From assembly GCA_905479265.1 (NCBI GenBank), contig CAJQLX010000019.1, forward strand, positions 1-64,000: DNA of 64,000 bases, given 5' to 3'. The notes below the pieces were generated by a model that was not told where the DNA came from, did no database searches, and saw only the letters and a list, made by a program, of their open reading frames with translations. How positions within the stretch are numbered: the stretch's first letter is position 1; each line of letters begins with the position of its first letter. The position numbers and the translations under genes were made by a program. This document shows, one piece after another, positions 23,134 through 28,853 of this stretch. The DNA is from an uncultured Alphaproteobacteria bacterium (GTDB lineage Bacteria; Pseudomonadota; Alphaproteobacteria; UBA7985).

Positions 23134-24354
23134 TTAGGACAGATCGTAAGCCCGTTCACCGTGCGCCGTCAGGTCAAGACCTTCCTGCTCAGTATCCGCA
23201 TCGGTACGCATGCCCACAAGCGCGCGGCACACCATGGCAAGGACGACCGTCACAACGATGGTAAACAGCGCCACGACAACCACGCCGGCAACCTGAACCA
23301 CAAACTGGGAAACAGCAGAAACGCCCTCGCCCAAGCCCGCGCCGCCCAAACCAGCCGCCGCGAGGAACGGAAGCGCCAAGGTGCCCCAGATACCGCCGAT
23401 ACCGTGAACAGCAAAGACGTCCAAGCTGTCATCGATGCGAAAGGCCTGCTTCACAACGTTGATCATTTCCTGACACAGGATACCGGCAACGCCGCCGATC
23501 ACCAGCGCACCCATTGGTCCGACGTGACCTGCCGCAGGCGTAATCGACGCCAAACCAGCCACCATGCCCGTCGCGATGCCAATCAGCGACGCTTTCCCAA
23601 AGCGGAACCGCTCCCATAGCATCCACGTACAACACGCCGTCGCAGCGGAAATGTGGGTTACAAAAGCCGCCGCCACGGCATCGCCATTCGCAGCAAAGGG
23701 TGAGCCGCCATTAAAGCCGAACCAGCCGACCCACAGCATGGAAGCGCCAATCATCACCAACACCGGCTGGTGCGGCGGCTGAATGGACGTTGGAAAGCCC
23801 GGACGCTTGCCGATCATAATGGCAAGGACCAGGGCCGCGACACCGGCGGTGGTGTGGACCACGACGCCGCCTGCAAGGTCTTGGACGCCCAAACCAGCAA
23901 ACAGGCCGATGCTGCTGTCTGATGACAGAATACCGCCGCCCCAGACCCAATGGGCCACAGGTGCGTAACAAAGCAACATCCAGAGCAAAGAGAACAGGAT
24001 CACAAAACCGAACTTAACACGCTCGACAAAGGCACCGATGATCAGCGCTGGCGTGATGATCGCAAAGGTCATCTGGAACAGGGCAAACAATTGATCTTCA
24101 CCGCGCGGCGTCGCGAGCATGAACACATTTGCCAAATCACCGATGAATTGACCAGAACCGCTAAAGGCCAGGCTGTAACCCAGAACGACCCAAGCGACAG
24201 ACATTACAGCGGCGAGCATGAAACAATGCATGAGGACAGAGAGAACGTTGCGAGCGCGAACCAAGCCGCCATAGAACAACGCAAGACCCGGAAGGGTCAT
24301 AAACAAGACCAACGCAGTGGCGGTAAGAAGCCACGCGATATCAGCTGAAGACAT
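23134..24354 (-). CDS. amtB: Ammonium transporter (Amt/MEP/Rh family)
   Basis: The 406-residue membrane protein has eleven hydrophobic segments and Amt hallmarks: LALFYGGLVRARNVLSVLMHC, the phenylalanine-gate region FQMTFAIITPALIIGAFVER, GGVVVHTTAGVAALVLA with the first pore histidine, and DVFAVHGIGGIWGTL with the second. It has no cleavable signal peptide and ends in a short cytoplasmic tail. No glnK (PII) gene is adjacent, unlike the usual glnK-amtB pair. ATG at 24354. Ammonium is a by-product of amine breakdown, but its use here is inferred only from presence. A weak sigma-54-like sequence lies about 115 bases upstream. Confidence 0.95.
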   Translation of the reverse strand: MSSADIAWLLTATALVLFMTLPGLALFYGGLVRARNVLSVLMHCFMLAAVMSVAWVVLGYSLAFSGSGQFIGDLANVFMLATPRGEDQLFALFQMTFAIITPALIIGAFVERVKFGFVILFSLLWMLLCYAPVAHWVWGGGILSSDSSIGLFAGLGVQDLAGGVVVHTTAGVAALVLAIMIGKRPGFPTSIQPPHQPVLVMIGASMLWVGWFGFNGGSPFAANGDAVAAAFVTHISAATACCTWMLWERFRFGKASLIGIATGMVAGLASITPAAGHVGPMGALVIGGVAGILCQEMINVVKQAFRIDDSLDVFAVHGIGGIWGTLALPFLAAAGLGGAGLGEGVSAVSQFVVQVAGVVVVALFTIVVTVVLAMVCRALVGMRTDADTEQEGLDLTAHGERAYDLS

Positions 24355-24643
24355 GGATCAGCACCTTTTTACAAACTACATCACTACAGAACACGAAGGC
24401 GGCTTTGCCAGTTCCTTAGGCAAAAGCCATCCATTACGATACTGGATCCGGCGATTAGCACACTTAGTGCGCATTTCTAGCCACATTTTGGCACTTTGCC
24501 TAATATTGAGGCAAACCCATTCAACGGCCTTTCTGTCTTCTCTTTTTCGCGGACAATAGCTGGCATCAAAAATGCAGGTCTTTCTCTATTTATGGCTAAA
24601 GCCACGCTCTTTGGTCGCAGAATATATTTGATGCGAGAATGAT

Positions 24644-25516
24644 ATGAAGCCCCTCCTGCTTGCCGCTAGTGCATTGTTTTTACATGGTTTTATTGCAACC
24701 ACAGCTGAAGCACACCCACCATCTTATGGCCCAGACGGTCTCATTCCGCATTCGCATACTGGCGATGGCACCATCATCACCGGTCAGCAGGTCGTCTCGC
24801 AAAGCCATCGCGACTGCCCGGAAACGACCTTGCCAACAATTCTTGGGATGGCGACAGACGGTCCATGCATTCGCGTGGCCTTGGGGCGCCCAATAGACCA
24901 CCACGTGTCGGTCGAGGCGAGCGAGCCCGTTCTCATTCAATCCGGGCACACGCCGCAAATTCCGGTTCTGCGCACCGTGGCGCAGCCGGTGGTTATGCCC
25001 GTTGTTCGGCCAATGGTTCGGCCAGTGATTCGGCCTGTTGTCCGGTCTTACGTCCAGCCCGCCTTGGTCCAGCCCATCGCTCCGCGCCCCATGCCGAGGA
25101 TTGTGCAACCCGTCCACCTTGCCGCCCCAAGAGTCATCATGCAGCGCCCTGCTGTGCCGATGGTCAGAGGGCCGGAGTTGGTTACTCAGTTTGAGCATGA
25201 AGGTGAGCTGCTGGGCGTCTTCAACACCAATGCCGTCGGCTTGTTTGGTATGACCCTCATCAAAGTCGCAGACTCAAATGGCGTCACCAAAGGGTCGTGG
25301 TGGACATCCCGGCCTTATTGCTTTTCCAGAATGGCTTTCCTGAGCAACGCTTGTTGGTCTCGCCGTGGATACCATGAGCGCTTTACCCAAGAGCTCAACC
25401 GGTCACGCCCAACATACAGTGGCCCCGGTGCCAAGCGATCCGACGACCCTTGCGATCACTACACCAAACTCGAAGCCATCGTTTCGCAGGATAAATCGGG
25501 TTTTTGCGGCTATTGA
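24644..25516 (+). CDS. Secreted protein of a three-member four-Cys family, long form with VRP repeats
   Basis: The 290-residue product has a signal peptide ending AEA, so the mature form would begin at H24 (HPPSYGP). An N-terminal segment carries LIPHSHTGDG (33-42), followed by a repeated V/I-x-R-P stretch (about 120-135) within a Pro-rich middle. The C-terminal 110 residues match the next two proteins: FNTNAVGLFGMTLIKVADSNG, SWWTSRPYCF, ACWSRRGY, CDHYTKLE. Conserved cysteines are C226, C237, C270 and C288, probably two disulfides. Two extra cysteines (58 and 75) belong to the N-terminal part. I do not recognise the family. The N-terminal extension is unique to this member, which otherwise shares the four-Cys module. 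Confidence 0.8.
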   Translation: MKPLLLAASALFLHGFIATTAEAHPPSYGPDGLIPHSHTGDGTIITGQQVVSQSHRDCPETTLPTILGMATDGPCIRVALGRPIDHHVSVEASEPVLIQSGHTPQIPVLRTVAQPVVMPVVRPMVRPVIRPVVRSYVQPALVQPIAPRPMPRIVQPVHLAAPRVIMQRPAVPMVRGPELVTQFEHEGELLGVFNTNAVGLFGMTLIKVADSNGVTKGSWWTSRPYCFSRMAFLSNACWSRRGYHERFTQELNRSRPTYSGPGAKRSDDPCDHYTKLEAIVSQDKSGFCGY

Positions 25517-25617
25517 GGCATTGGGAATAAGGCATTTCAGCGAAATCAGCCTGAAACGGTATAATCACTAATAACAATCGTGTAAGAAGGCCTTATCACT
25601 ACCACCGAGAGGCACTC

Positions 25618-26109
25618 ATGAAAGTTCTTCCGTTTTTGCTGAGTCTGTTTGTTATTGGCGCGACAATGGTTTCGACCGCGAATGCGCACCCCCATCACGC
25701 AGCGCCTGCGCCGGCTGCTGCAGCCAGCTGGGTCCAGCTGGAGCCTGAGGAAGTCATGAGCTTCGATACCGCTGACGGTAGTTTTACGATTTGGAACACC
25801 CATCAGCGCGGCCTTTTTGGCATTGAGTTGATCGAAGTTCGCGACAGCGCTGGGGGCAATGTTGCGGGTTGGTGGTCCAGTCGAGGCTGGTGCTTCACAC
25901 AGCACGCTTATGCCTCGAAAGGCTGTTGGAGTGACTCAGGGTATCGCCAAGTTGCTCAGAACCGGATGAAAACTGCCTCCTACACGCGCTCATTCAACGT
26001 GCGCGGTGGATCGGCAGATACCGATGACGCGACGACCTTTTGCGACCACTATACGCAGTTGGAGTACACAATTTCTCGCGATACTTCCGAACGCTGCGAC
26101 TACGAATAG
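25618..26109 (+). CDS. Secreted protein of the same four-Cys family, short form
   Basis: The 163-residue product has a signal peptide ending ANA, giving a mature N-terminus HPHHAAP with three histidines in four residues. The module reads WNTHQRGLFGIELIEVRDSAGG, GWWSSRGWCF, GCWSDSGY, FCDHYTQLEY, with cysteines 92, 103, 142 and 160. The spacing between the first two cysteines (11 residues) is the same in all three paralogues. ATG at 25618 follows GAGAGGCACTC. It is 101 bases downstream of the long paralogue and 14 bases before the third, so the last two at least share a transcript. Function unknown; a periplasmic or extracellular location is expected. Confidence 0.82.
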   Translation: MKVLPFLLSLFVIGATMVSTANAHPHHAAPAPAAAASWVQLEPEEVMSFDTADGSFTIWNTHQRGLFGIELIEVRDSAGGNVAGWWSSRGWCFTQHAYASKGCWSDSGYRQVAQNRMKTASYTRSFNVRGGSADTDDATTFCDHYTQLEYTISRDTSERCDYE

Positions 26110-26123
26110 GAAGGCTATCCATC

Positions 26124-26603
26124 ATGAAAATGCTGAAAATGATCCTCGTGGCCGCAATCGCCGCAACGACCGCCGCAACCGCGGCACAGGCTCACCCACC
26201 CGTGCACGAGCCTGAAGAGTTCATGCAGTTTCGGTACGCGGGCGCCATTTATTCAGCCGTGAACACGCACACGCGGGGCTTTCTCGGCGGAGAGCTGATC
26301 GAAATTCACGATGCTACAGGGGCTGTCAAGGCAAGCTGGTGGGACAACCGCAGCCGTTGCTTCACCGCCCACGCATTCACGAACCACCCTTGCTGGCACC
26401 CCATGCGATACGCCCAGTTGCTCTCGGGCAAACTTCGCGCACAAACCGCCTCGGTCGTGACGCGCAAGTTTGGTGGCTTTACATCCGAAGACACTTCAAC
26501 CTTCTGCGATCATTACTCACAGTTGGAATACACCGTCTCTGGCGACACGTCGGGGAAATGCGGTCATGAAGACGGACTGGCTTTGCCCTCTTGGGCTGAG
26601 TAA
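26124..26603 (+). CDS. Secreted protein of the same four-Cys family, short form, third copy
   Basis: The 159-residue product has a signal peptide ending AQA and mature start HPPVHEPEEF. The module reads VNTHTRGFLGGELIEIHDATG, SWWDNRSRCF, PCWHPMRY, FCDHYSQLEY, with cysteines 79, 90, 128 and 146 and an acidic C-terminal tail. I use the ATG at 26124, which has AAGG upstream and puts the signal peptide at the start; the longer frame upstream overlaps the previous gene. Pairwise differences from the second copy are many, so the duplication is old. It converges with the Rel gene 30 bases on. Confidence 0.82.
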   Translation: MKMLKMILVAAIAATTAATAAQAHPPVHEPEEFMQFRYAGAIYSAVNTHTRGFLGGELIEIHDATGAVKASWWDNRSRCFTAHAFTNHPCWHPMRYAQLLSGKLRAQTASVVTRKFGGFTSEDTSTFCDHYSQLEYTVSGDTSGKCGHEDGLALPSWAE

Positions 26604-26633: not shown

Positions 26634-28853
26634 CTAGCCGCGCTGTCGTTCAACGCTCTCAATGGAGGGCGCAGAGCGCAGCGTGGCGATGATGACGTTG
26701 AGCTGGCGCAGATCGCCGACCTCGACATCAACGAGAATTTCGAAAAAATCCGTTTGCCGGTTCAGAAATTTGAAATTCAGAATGTTTCCACCGGTCCGCC
26801 CGATCAACGTCGTCAACGTCCCCAATGCCCCCGGCTCATTGCTCAAAATGACCCGCAACCGGCCCACATGCGGGGTTTCGGTGCTGGCTTCCCAGCCAAC
26901 CTCCAACCAACGCTCAGGCTGGTCATAAAAGTTGACGAGATTATCGCAATCGATGGTGTGGATCGTAATCCCCTTACCCGTCGCAACAATACCGACAATG
27001 CGCTCACCCGGCAGCGGGTGACAGCAGCGGGCAAAGTGGACCGCCATGCCCTTGATCAGACCTTTGAGTTCGACCTTGGTCGGGTCAGCCTGACCGCGTT
27101 CCAGTGTCTCACCGGACTTGAGACGATCAAGCGCACGCTGGTCTTTGGTCTTTGCGCTGTTCTCCCGCGCGATGCCCGGGAACAGGGTTCGAACCACGTC
27201 GCCCGCCGGAATAAGACCGGCGCCGACCTGCGCGAGGACATCTTCACCATTTTCCAAACGCCACTTAGACGCGATGTCGTCCAGCGCTTTTTCTTTGGCC
27301 TCAACCTCATTCATTCGATAGGCGCGCGTCAAAATCTGCCGTCCAAGCGCAACGTGCTGATCCCGTTCAGCGTTTCGGATATACCGACGGATCGACGCCC
27401 GTGCCTTGCCCGAGGCAACAAGGTTCAGCCATTCAGGATTTGGAGCGGCGTTTTTCGAGCGCAGGATATCAACTTGGTCGCCATTGCGCAGAACAGTGTG
27501 CAAAGGCCGTATTTTGCCGTTGATCCGAGCGCCAACGCAGGTATTCCCCACATCAGAATGGACCGCGTAGGCAAAGTCGACGACCGTGGCATCGCCCGGC
27601 AGGGAAATCAGGTGTCCGCGCGGCGTAAAACAGAACACTTGATTCTGGAACAGGTCGATGCGGGTGTTGTCGAGGAATTCTTGGGGATCTTCGGACTGTT
27701 CCAGCAGGTCGATCAGCTGTTTGACCCAGTTGTAATTATCACCCGACGCCAAATCCGCAGCAACGGTGCCGTCCTTGTAAGCCCAATGCGCGGCAAGACC
27801 CAACTCAGCGCGGCGGTGCATGTCCTGATTTCGGATTTGCACTTCGATCGACTGGCTTTCTGGGCCGATGACTACCGTGTGGATCGACTGGTAGCCATTG
27901 GGCTTGGGTGTCGAGATGTAGTCTTTATAGCGGCCCATGCGGTGCGAATACTTCGCGTGCAGCGCTCCGAGTGCGGCGTAACAATCACCCAGCGTTGGTA
28001 CGATCACTCGAAAAGCCACAATGTCTGAGAGCTGCCCAAGGTCCAAGTCCTTGGTCTGCATTTTCTTCCAGATGGAATAGGGCGTTTTGATCCGGCCATT
28101 GATCTCAACGATGTCGAGACCCACGTCGCTCACATCCTCCCGCAGCTGTTGGATAATGCCGACAGTCAGAGCATCGCCTTGATCCCGCAGGAACTCAGTT
28201 CGCTGCATGATGGAATCTCGCGCTTCGGGCATCAGATGGCTGAAAGAGAGGTCTTCGAGCTCCTCCTGCAGGTCAACCATTCCAATCCGGCCCGCCAAGG
28301 GCGCGTAGATTTCCAGCGTTTCTGTCGCAATCCGAGCGCGCTTTTCCGGCTTTTTGATGAAGTGAAGTGTGCGCATGTTGTCCAGGCGGTCGGAGAGTTT
28401 GACCAGCAGAACACGGATATCACGGGACAGCGCGAGGAGCAGTTTGCGGAAGTTTTCTGCCTGCTTCACCTCATTGCTTGTCACCTCAAGGTGCGTGAGT
28501 TTTGTTACGCCCTCAACCAACTCGCCAACAGTCCCGCCAAACATCTTGCAGATGTCCTTGTTCGTCGCCCCGGTGTCTTCAACAACATCGTGCAGCAAGG
28601 CGGTCGCGATTGTTGCAGGGTCCAGCTTCTTTTCAGCCAGATAAAGCGCAACACGAACGGGATGGATGAAATAGGGGTCGCCGGAGGCACGGCGCTGTGG
28701 CTCGTGCATGGTCTCGGCGTAGTCATAGGCCGCAGCAACGACCGAAGTATCATAGTCAGGGTGCGCGAGTTGCACCCTGCTCAGCAACTGAGCCCTTGTG
28801 GCGGGCCCAAGGCTCTGTGGCGTATCGCCGATTTCGGCAAGAGGGCCAGGCAC
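26634..28853 (-). CDS. rel: Bifunctional (p)ppGpp synthetase/hydrolase, Rel/Spo family
   Basis: The 739-residue long-form Rel protein has an HD hydrolase domain (HPVRVALYLAEKK, ALLHDVVEDT with the HD pair at 88-89), a synthetase domain (TPYSIWKKMQ, DIVAFRVIV, GYQSIHT, about 250-370), a TGS domain (VFCFTPRGHLISLPGDATVVDFAYAVH, about 405-465) and a C-terminal ACT domain (about 665-739). An intact HD domain and synthetase argue for both activities. Start is a GTG at 28853; GGAGGA lies somewhat far upstream. The gene follows rpoZ by 8 bases, the usual alphaproteobacterial arrangement. It controls the stringent response to amino-acid or carbon shortage. Confidence 0.96.
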   Translation of the reverse strand: MPGPLAEIGDTPQSLGPATRAQLLSRVQLAHPDYDTSVVAAAYDYAETMHEPQRRASGDPYFIHPVRVALYLAEKKLDPATIATALLHDVVEDTGATNKDICKMFGGTVGELVEGVTKLTHLEVTSNEVKQAENFRKLLLALSRDIRVLLVKLSDRLDNMRTLHFIKKPEKRARIATETLEIYAPLAGRIGMVDLQEELEDLSFSHLMPEARDSIMQRTEFLRDQGDALTVGIIQQLREDVSDVGLDIVEINGRIKTPYSIWKKMQTKDLDLGQLSDIVAFRVIVPTLGDCYAALGALHAKYSHRMGRYKDYISTPKPNGYQSIHTVVIGPESQSIEVQIRNQDMHRRAELGLAAHWAYKDGTVAADLASGDNYNWVKQLIDLLEQSEDPQEFLDNTRIDLFQNQVFCFTPRGHLISLPGDATVVDFAYAVHSDVGNTCVGARINGKIRPLHTVLRNGDQVDILRSKNAAPNPEWLNLVASGKARASIRRYIRNAERDQHVALGRQILTRAYRMNEVEAKEKALDDIASKWRLENGEDVLAQVGAGLIPAGDVVRTLFPGIARENSAKTKDQRALDRLKSGETLERGQADPTKVELKGLIKGMAVHFARCCHPLPGERIVGIVATGKGITIHTIDCDNLVNFYDQPERWLEVGWEASTETPHVGRLRVILSNEPGALGTLTTLIGRTGGNILNFKFLNRQTDFFEILVDVEVGDLRQLNVIIATLRSAPSIESVERQRG

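Follow-up and report, generated by a model that had tools for sequence, protein, structure and literature searches.

The analysis of the window, a stretch of 64,000 nucleotides, located three tandem genes, here called A, B and C, which are flanked by amtB, encoding an ammonium transporter, and by a RelA/SpoT gene (Table 1). The sequence-only reading had described them as three secreted paralogues, and all three open reading frames were recovered where it had placed them. Pairwise identity is 44% between B and C and 38% between B and A, and a whole-genome search with B as the query returned C (E = 1e-31), A (E = 5e-21) and a copy on contig C41 (E = 5e-18). Because of the two identities and the E-values for C and A, the paralogy of the three genes cannot be attributed to chance. 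The stop of B is separated from C by 14 bp, and A from B by about 100 bp. No glnK-type gene was noticed beside amtB. A second AmtB, encoded elsewhere in the same genome (contig C12:55495-56721, L040), is 55% identical to the one flanking the array.

Table 1. Features of the array, of its flanks and of the orthologue of A.
Feature	Position	Strand	Remarks
amtB, ammonium transporter gene	23134-24354	-	PF00909; flanks the array
Imperfect inverted repeat GCATCAAAAAT / ATATTTGATGC	24563..24634 (arms 24563-24573 and 24624-24634)	+	just upstream of A
Paralogue A	24644..25516	+	290 aa; signal peptide 1-23; the signal peptide is followed by a two-Cys segment rich in His, a linker rich in Pro, Val and Arg, and the family domain at the C-terminus
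A-specific N-terminal segment of the mature protein	24713..24950	+	two extra Cys, His cluster
Four-Cys family core domain of A	25166..25513	+	
15-bp element GGAATAAGGCATTTC	25524..25538	+	between A and B
Paralogue B	25618..26109	+	163 aa; signal peptide 1-23; predicted mature His1 is H24
Paralogue C	26124..26603	+	159 aa; signal peptide 1-23; predicted mature His1 is H24
RelA/SpoT gene	26634-28853	-	flanks the array
Orthologue of A	7461-8345 of L022		PAFB01000047

Two short non-coding elements accompany the genes. The three array-bearing genomes each contain the element GGAATAAGGCATTTC once, in identical form, 4-7 bp past the stop of A; a search of six genomes of the genus allowing up to one mismatch found it nowhere else. 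Because it is conserved within otherwise diverged intergenic DNA, its sequence suggests a candidate site for transcription of B-C. The inverted repeat GCATCAAAAAT/ATATTTGATGC is perfect in the orthologous region of genome G003 and could be an operator. A leader RNA upstream of A was considered and rejected, with fold energies no better than those of shuffled sequences (z of +1.0 and -1.0) and no Rfam match. Promoter and terminator scans likewise gave results no better than shuffles.

A fourth genomic copy, for which the sequence-only reading had proposed a search, was found in diverged form on contig C41 (L005 5166-5765; the reading frame runs from 5166 and a later ATG gives 172 aa). It sits between a pair of genes that are probably DUF1800/DUF1501-like and the gene of a long repeat protein. 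Its orthologue lies on contig C18 of genome G001 (L015). The adjoining gene on C41 (L005 5807-9349) encodes a cadherin-like repeat protein of 1180 aa, in which two long stretches look like near-identical repeats, each about 200 aa in length.

Profile searches found copies in five of the six genus genomes, that of the window included; the sixth genome is 63% complete and has no RelA/SpoT gene either. No copy was found by profile search in five genomes of the same order, nor in any genome outside the genus when 385 genomes were sampled from the class and 398 from the phylum. At class level the core profile gave matches with E-values of 0.003-0.05, but none of the nine loci that were read had an open frame bearing the family motifs; they overlap other genes or fall in different frames and were taken as chance. 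When 84,980 species genomes were scanned with the WW...CFT segment as a conserved peptide pattern, five loci were obtained in four MAGs, all of this genus (PAHJ01, PAFB01, PAPT01 and PAGB01, which carry the label Geminicoccus sp. or Rhodospirillaceae bacterium). The scan depends on this single pattern, so that distant relatives elsewhere may be missed. An earlier scan of genome contigs with a single protein had returned nothing, the five loci being those of the profile scan. Plasmids and phages gave no match by tblastn, nor did viral contigs. As far as tested, the family appears so far to be confined to one genus, for which the isolate names MED and SP suggest an origin in ocean metagenomes and a marine habitat.

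Curated libraries were searched for a characterised domain family that would account for these proteins. Nothing usable was obtained from Pfam, NCBIfam or PADLOC, and no Pfam family matched more than one of the 12 members. Matches to DUF6292, Campylo_MOMP and DUF6760, one member each, were taken as chance or signal-peptide matches. PHROGs gave scattered single-member weak matches with E-values of 0.0087 or weaker; the best of them, to an endolysin, concerned one member of the 12 and was treated as chance. A profile of 12 sequences found no match in the PDB. Within these libraries, the evidence supports the earlier description of the proteins as an unrecognised four-Cys secreted family.

The order amtB, family copies, RelA/SpoT is kept, directly or across contig ends, in the three species that have A, B and C. 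These are the species of the window, PAFB01, where the region is divided between L022 and L019, and PAHJ01 (L018), whose contig includes just the end of A, with amtB at the start of a different contig. PAPT01 has a single copy at the same amtB-RelA/SpoT place (L020), and PAGB01 has one copy elsewhere in its genome. In the tree the two A sequences and the two of the C41 type each form a pair with support of 100/100, C has moderate support of 81/79, and B and the root were not resolved. A change from one copy to three and a change from three to one are both compatible with this tree.

All 12 copies share N-T, WW, C-x10-C and a second cysteine pair near the C-terminus. In the numbering of B, the residues invariant among them are His24, Glu44, Phe49, Asn60, Thr61, Trp85, Trp86, Cys92, Cys103, Tyr145, Leu148 and Ser153. 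Several motifs named by the sequence-only reading hold as given: N-T-x3-G-[LF]-[FL]-G-x2-L-I and the C-D-H-Y segment with four cysteines are present in all three window proteins, and the spacing between the first two cysteines (11 positions apart, 10 residues between) is identical in every copy. Its WW-x2-R-x2-CF motif has to be relaxed: WW-x5-C-[FY] is found in all three window proteins, but the arginine varies once more copies are compared. Ten of the 12 copies have Cys3 within C-D-H-Y or C-E-H-Y and a Cys4 close to the end. The remaining two, of the C41 type, keep four cysteines, with Cys3 five residues later and Cys4 moved toward the C-terminal end. The constant count of four cysteines fits two disulfides, and we infer that the domain is held by Cys1-Cys2 and Cys3-Cys4 pairing.

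The two motifs C-D-H-Y-x2-L-E and N-T-H, each present in 10 of the 12 copies, could be explained by a secreted enzyme in which the invariant Asn/Thr/Trp and D-H-Y form a catalytic pocket and the cysteines merely stabilise the protein. However, the copies of the C41 type have D-N-Y or D-D-Y in place of D-H-Y, and A of the window has N-T-N in place of N-T-H, so that no catalytic set containing these histidines is invariant. The domain is moreover of about 120 residues and has no enzyme-like fold match, and we consider an enzyme unlikely.

Copy A differs from the others by its N-terminal extension, which had been read as a His/Pro-rich stretch of VRP repeats. A Pro/Val/Arg-rich stretch is indeed present there, but it follows a segment of about 75 residues that is conserved with the orthologue (69% identity) and contains two further conserved cysteines and many histidines. 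This segment had no match in Pfam and, when searched alone, found the orthologue only; all other matches had E-values of at least 0.015 and contained stops or lay in short frames.

The earlier reading had passed over the one invariant N-terminal residue of the family, the predicted mature His1. Apart from the start methionine, His24 is the sole invariant residue of positions 1-43, and the linker around it varies freely. In the alignment it directly follows [AV]-x-[AS], the classic signal peptidase I site, in all 12 copies; cleavage before it is a prediction, judged by eye and with a crude rule. Applied to the same loci, the crude signal-peptide rule found AxA|H in 8 of 36 candidate ORFs, seven of which belong to this family. 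The tails after the predicted cut are of the kinds H-P-H-H, H-P-H-N-H and H-S-E-H, with another histidine at mature position 3 in six copies and at position 4 in five of the 12. A published background figure for histidine at position 1 of secreted proteins, labelled Eukarya, is 2.6% (PMC12537917). Secreted families with a conserved mature His1, namely DUF4198, DUF6702, Ang-1 and Ang-2, bind Cu, Ni or Co, and one such site consists of His1 plus an asparagine, with no second histidine (PMC12537917). With a conserved histidine straight after the signal peptide in 12 of 12 copies, the four-Cys family fits this feature of the signal-strapping class.

Because of the invariant predicted His1 and the published families with the same feature, we tentatively propose that the proteins are secreted or periplasmic metal binders using this residue. 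Cleavage at [AV]-x-[AS]|H would expose His1 with a free amino group, and His1 would chelate a transition metal, most likely Cu(II) and possibly Ni or Zn, aided by the histidines that usually come next, in tails of the H-P-H-H type. Asn60, which never varies, might be a further ligand, or else His62 and His144, which are almost invariant, each being found in 10 of the 12 copies; the candidate second and third ligands are absent in A of the window, which has Asn for His62, and partly absent in the C41-type copies. The scaffold would be a four-strand sheet with helices, pinned by the two putative disulfides, and the array would encode a non-enzymatic metal binder or scavenger, of which copy A would have gained a second His-rich segment. 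The observed basis of this proposal is the paralogy, the conservation of the array, the signal-like N-terminus, the invariant histidine and the four cysteines in each family domain; cleavage at precisely this site, the pairing of the disulfides, the binding of a metal, and where in the cell the proteins act and what they do there are inferred. Against the proposal, no gene for a metal transporter, a chaperone or a metal regulator was found beside the array, whose neighbours are amtB and RelA/SpoT.

The copies have diverged rapidly. Amino-acid identity between orthologues is 50-64%, compared with 86-93% for RelA/SpoT and 93% for AmtB, and dN is 0.30-0.45, compared with 0.04-0.09 for the flanking genes; at the amino-acid level the family evolves about ten times faster than its neighbours. 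Between orthologues dS exceeds 2 where it could be computed and is otherwise saturated. Because dN is 0.30-0.45 against a dS above 2, the copies are real proteins under purifying selection, though fast evolving. Lineage-specific tandem secreted paralogues in bacteria are small and fast evolving, with variable copy number and restricted range; the same traits are seen here, and the difference is the fixed amtB-RelA/SpoT site across species.

Divergence of this order (identity of 50-64% against 93% for the flanking SpoT and AmtB, dN of about 0.44 against 0.04), together with the presence of one to three copies at one site, could also be explained by a fast-evolving secreted or surface binder of a protein or glycan partner, similar to an inhibitor or adhesin. 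N-T, WW, C-x10-C and D-H-Y would then form the binding face, and the N-terminal histidine would be a habit of the cleavage site or of minor importance. The internal positions that vary least have aromatic and polar residues, and internal conservation is strongest at N-T, WW, E, Y and S, which are not typical metal ligands and could belong to a different binding surface. On the other hand, His24 is conserved more strongly than a cleavage habit needs, and no known inhibitor or adhesin stands out among the fold matches. We rank metal binding through His1 as the likeliest reading, with a binder of another partner close behind and, like it, short of probable.

Structure prediction bears on the scaffold proposed for metal binding. 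The AlphaFold2 model of B, built from ten sequences, has a mean pLDDT of 71.9, with residues 41-120 near 90; it contains strands at 44-51, 54-64, 70-76 and 81-87 and helices at 95-99 and 106-119, and its C-terminal part with Cys3-Cys4 has pLDDT of 62-69. The model of mature C has the same order of elements (mean pLDDT 73.4). In both, the C-terminal third is below 70 and the N-terminal tail is of low confidence. Foldseek comparison of both models with the PDB gave no E-value below 0.001, and that of one model with BFVD none below 0.07. The best VIA-align score (Z of 5.2 to AcrF1, over 72-75 residues at an rmsd of about 4.5) was set aside, since the tool's note describes such values as usual for models with no relative. 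The modelled fold may be new or merely unrecognised.

It is also conceivable, if somewhat less so than an enzyme, that these proteins belong to a known periplasmic family, either CopC-like or a DUF, and have diverged too far for sequence tools to recognise them. CopC too has a mature N-terminal histidine, as do LPMOs, and the genome itself carries a clear CopC elsewhere (contig C36:114572-114904, L052; PF04234, 44 bits), probably an ordinary His1 copper protein besides the four-Cys family. CopC is a beta-sandwich, whereas the confident part of the predicted core has four strands followed by helices, a comparison with the Ig-like sandwich of CopC and LPMOs in which the C-terminal third is below pLDDT 70. 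There is no significant fold match and no sequence match to CopC or LPMOs, and no Pfam family matches more than one member; the CopC profile (PF04234) matched none of the 12 at E-values up to 1. A second invariant histidine, as in the histidine brace of CopC and LPMOs, was not found among the copies.

For metal binding through His1, the nearest comparison is with DUF4198, DUF6702, Ang-1 and Ang-2, which are likewise small secreted domains with a conserved histidine after the signal peptide (PMC12537917). DUF6702 (by model) and Ang-1 (by crystal structure) are Ig-like beta-sandwiches, unlike the predicted four-strand-plus-helix core. Those four families are also widespread, whereas the four-Cys family is found in one genus and its metal binding is a proposal. 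That it represents a new fold and a new class of N-terminal-His metal binders, born inside one marine alphaproteobacterial genus and expanded into a three-gene array, seems improbable at present.

Overall, the four-Cys family is real and selected, is absent from the curated libraries scanned and is untraced outside one genus, and it bears on how secreted proteins arise within a lineage. The invariant predicted mature His1 provides a functional lead that annotation would not offer. If metal binding is true, another fold would join the growing set of N-terminal-His metalloproteins and, if the reading as a new class is also true, the array would represent a recently born family of secreted metalloproteins.
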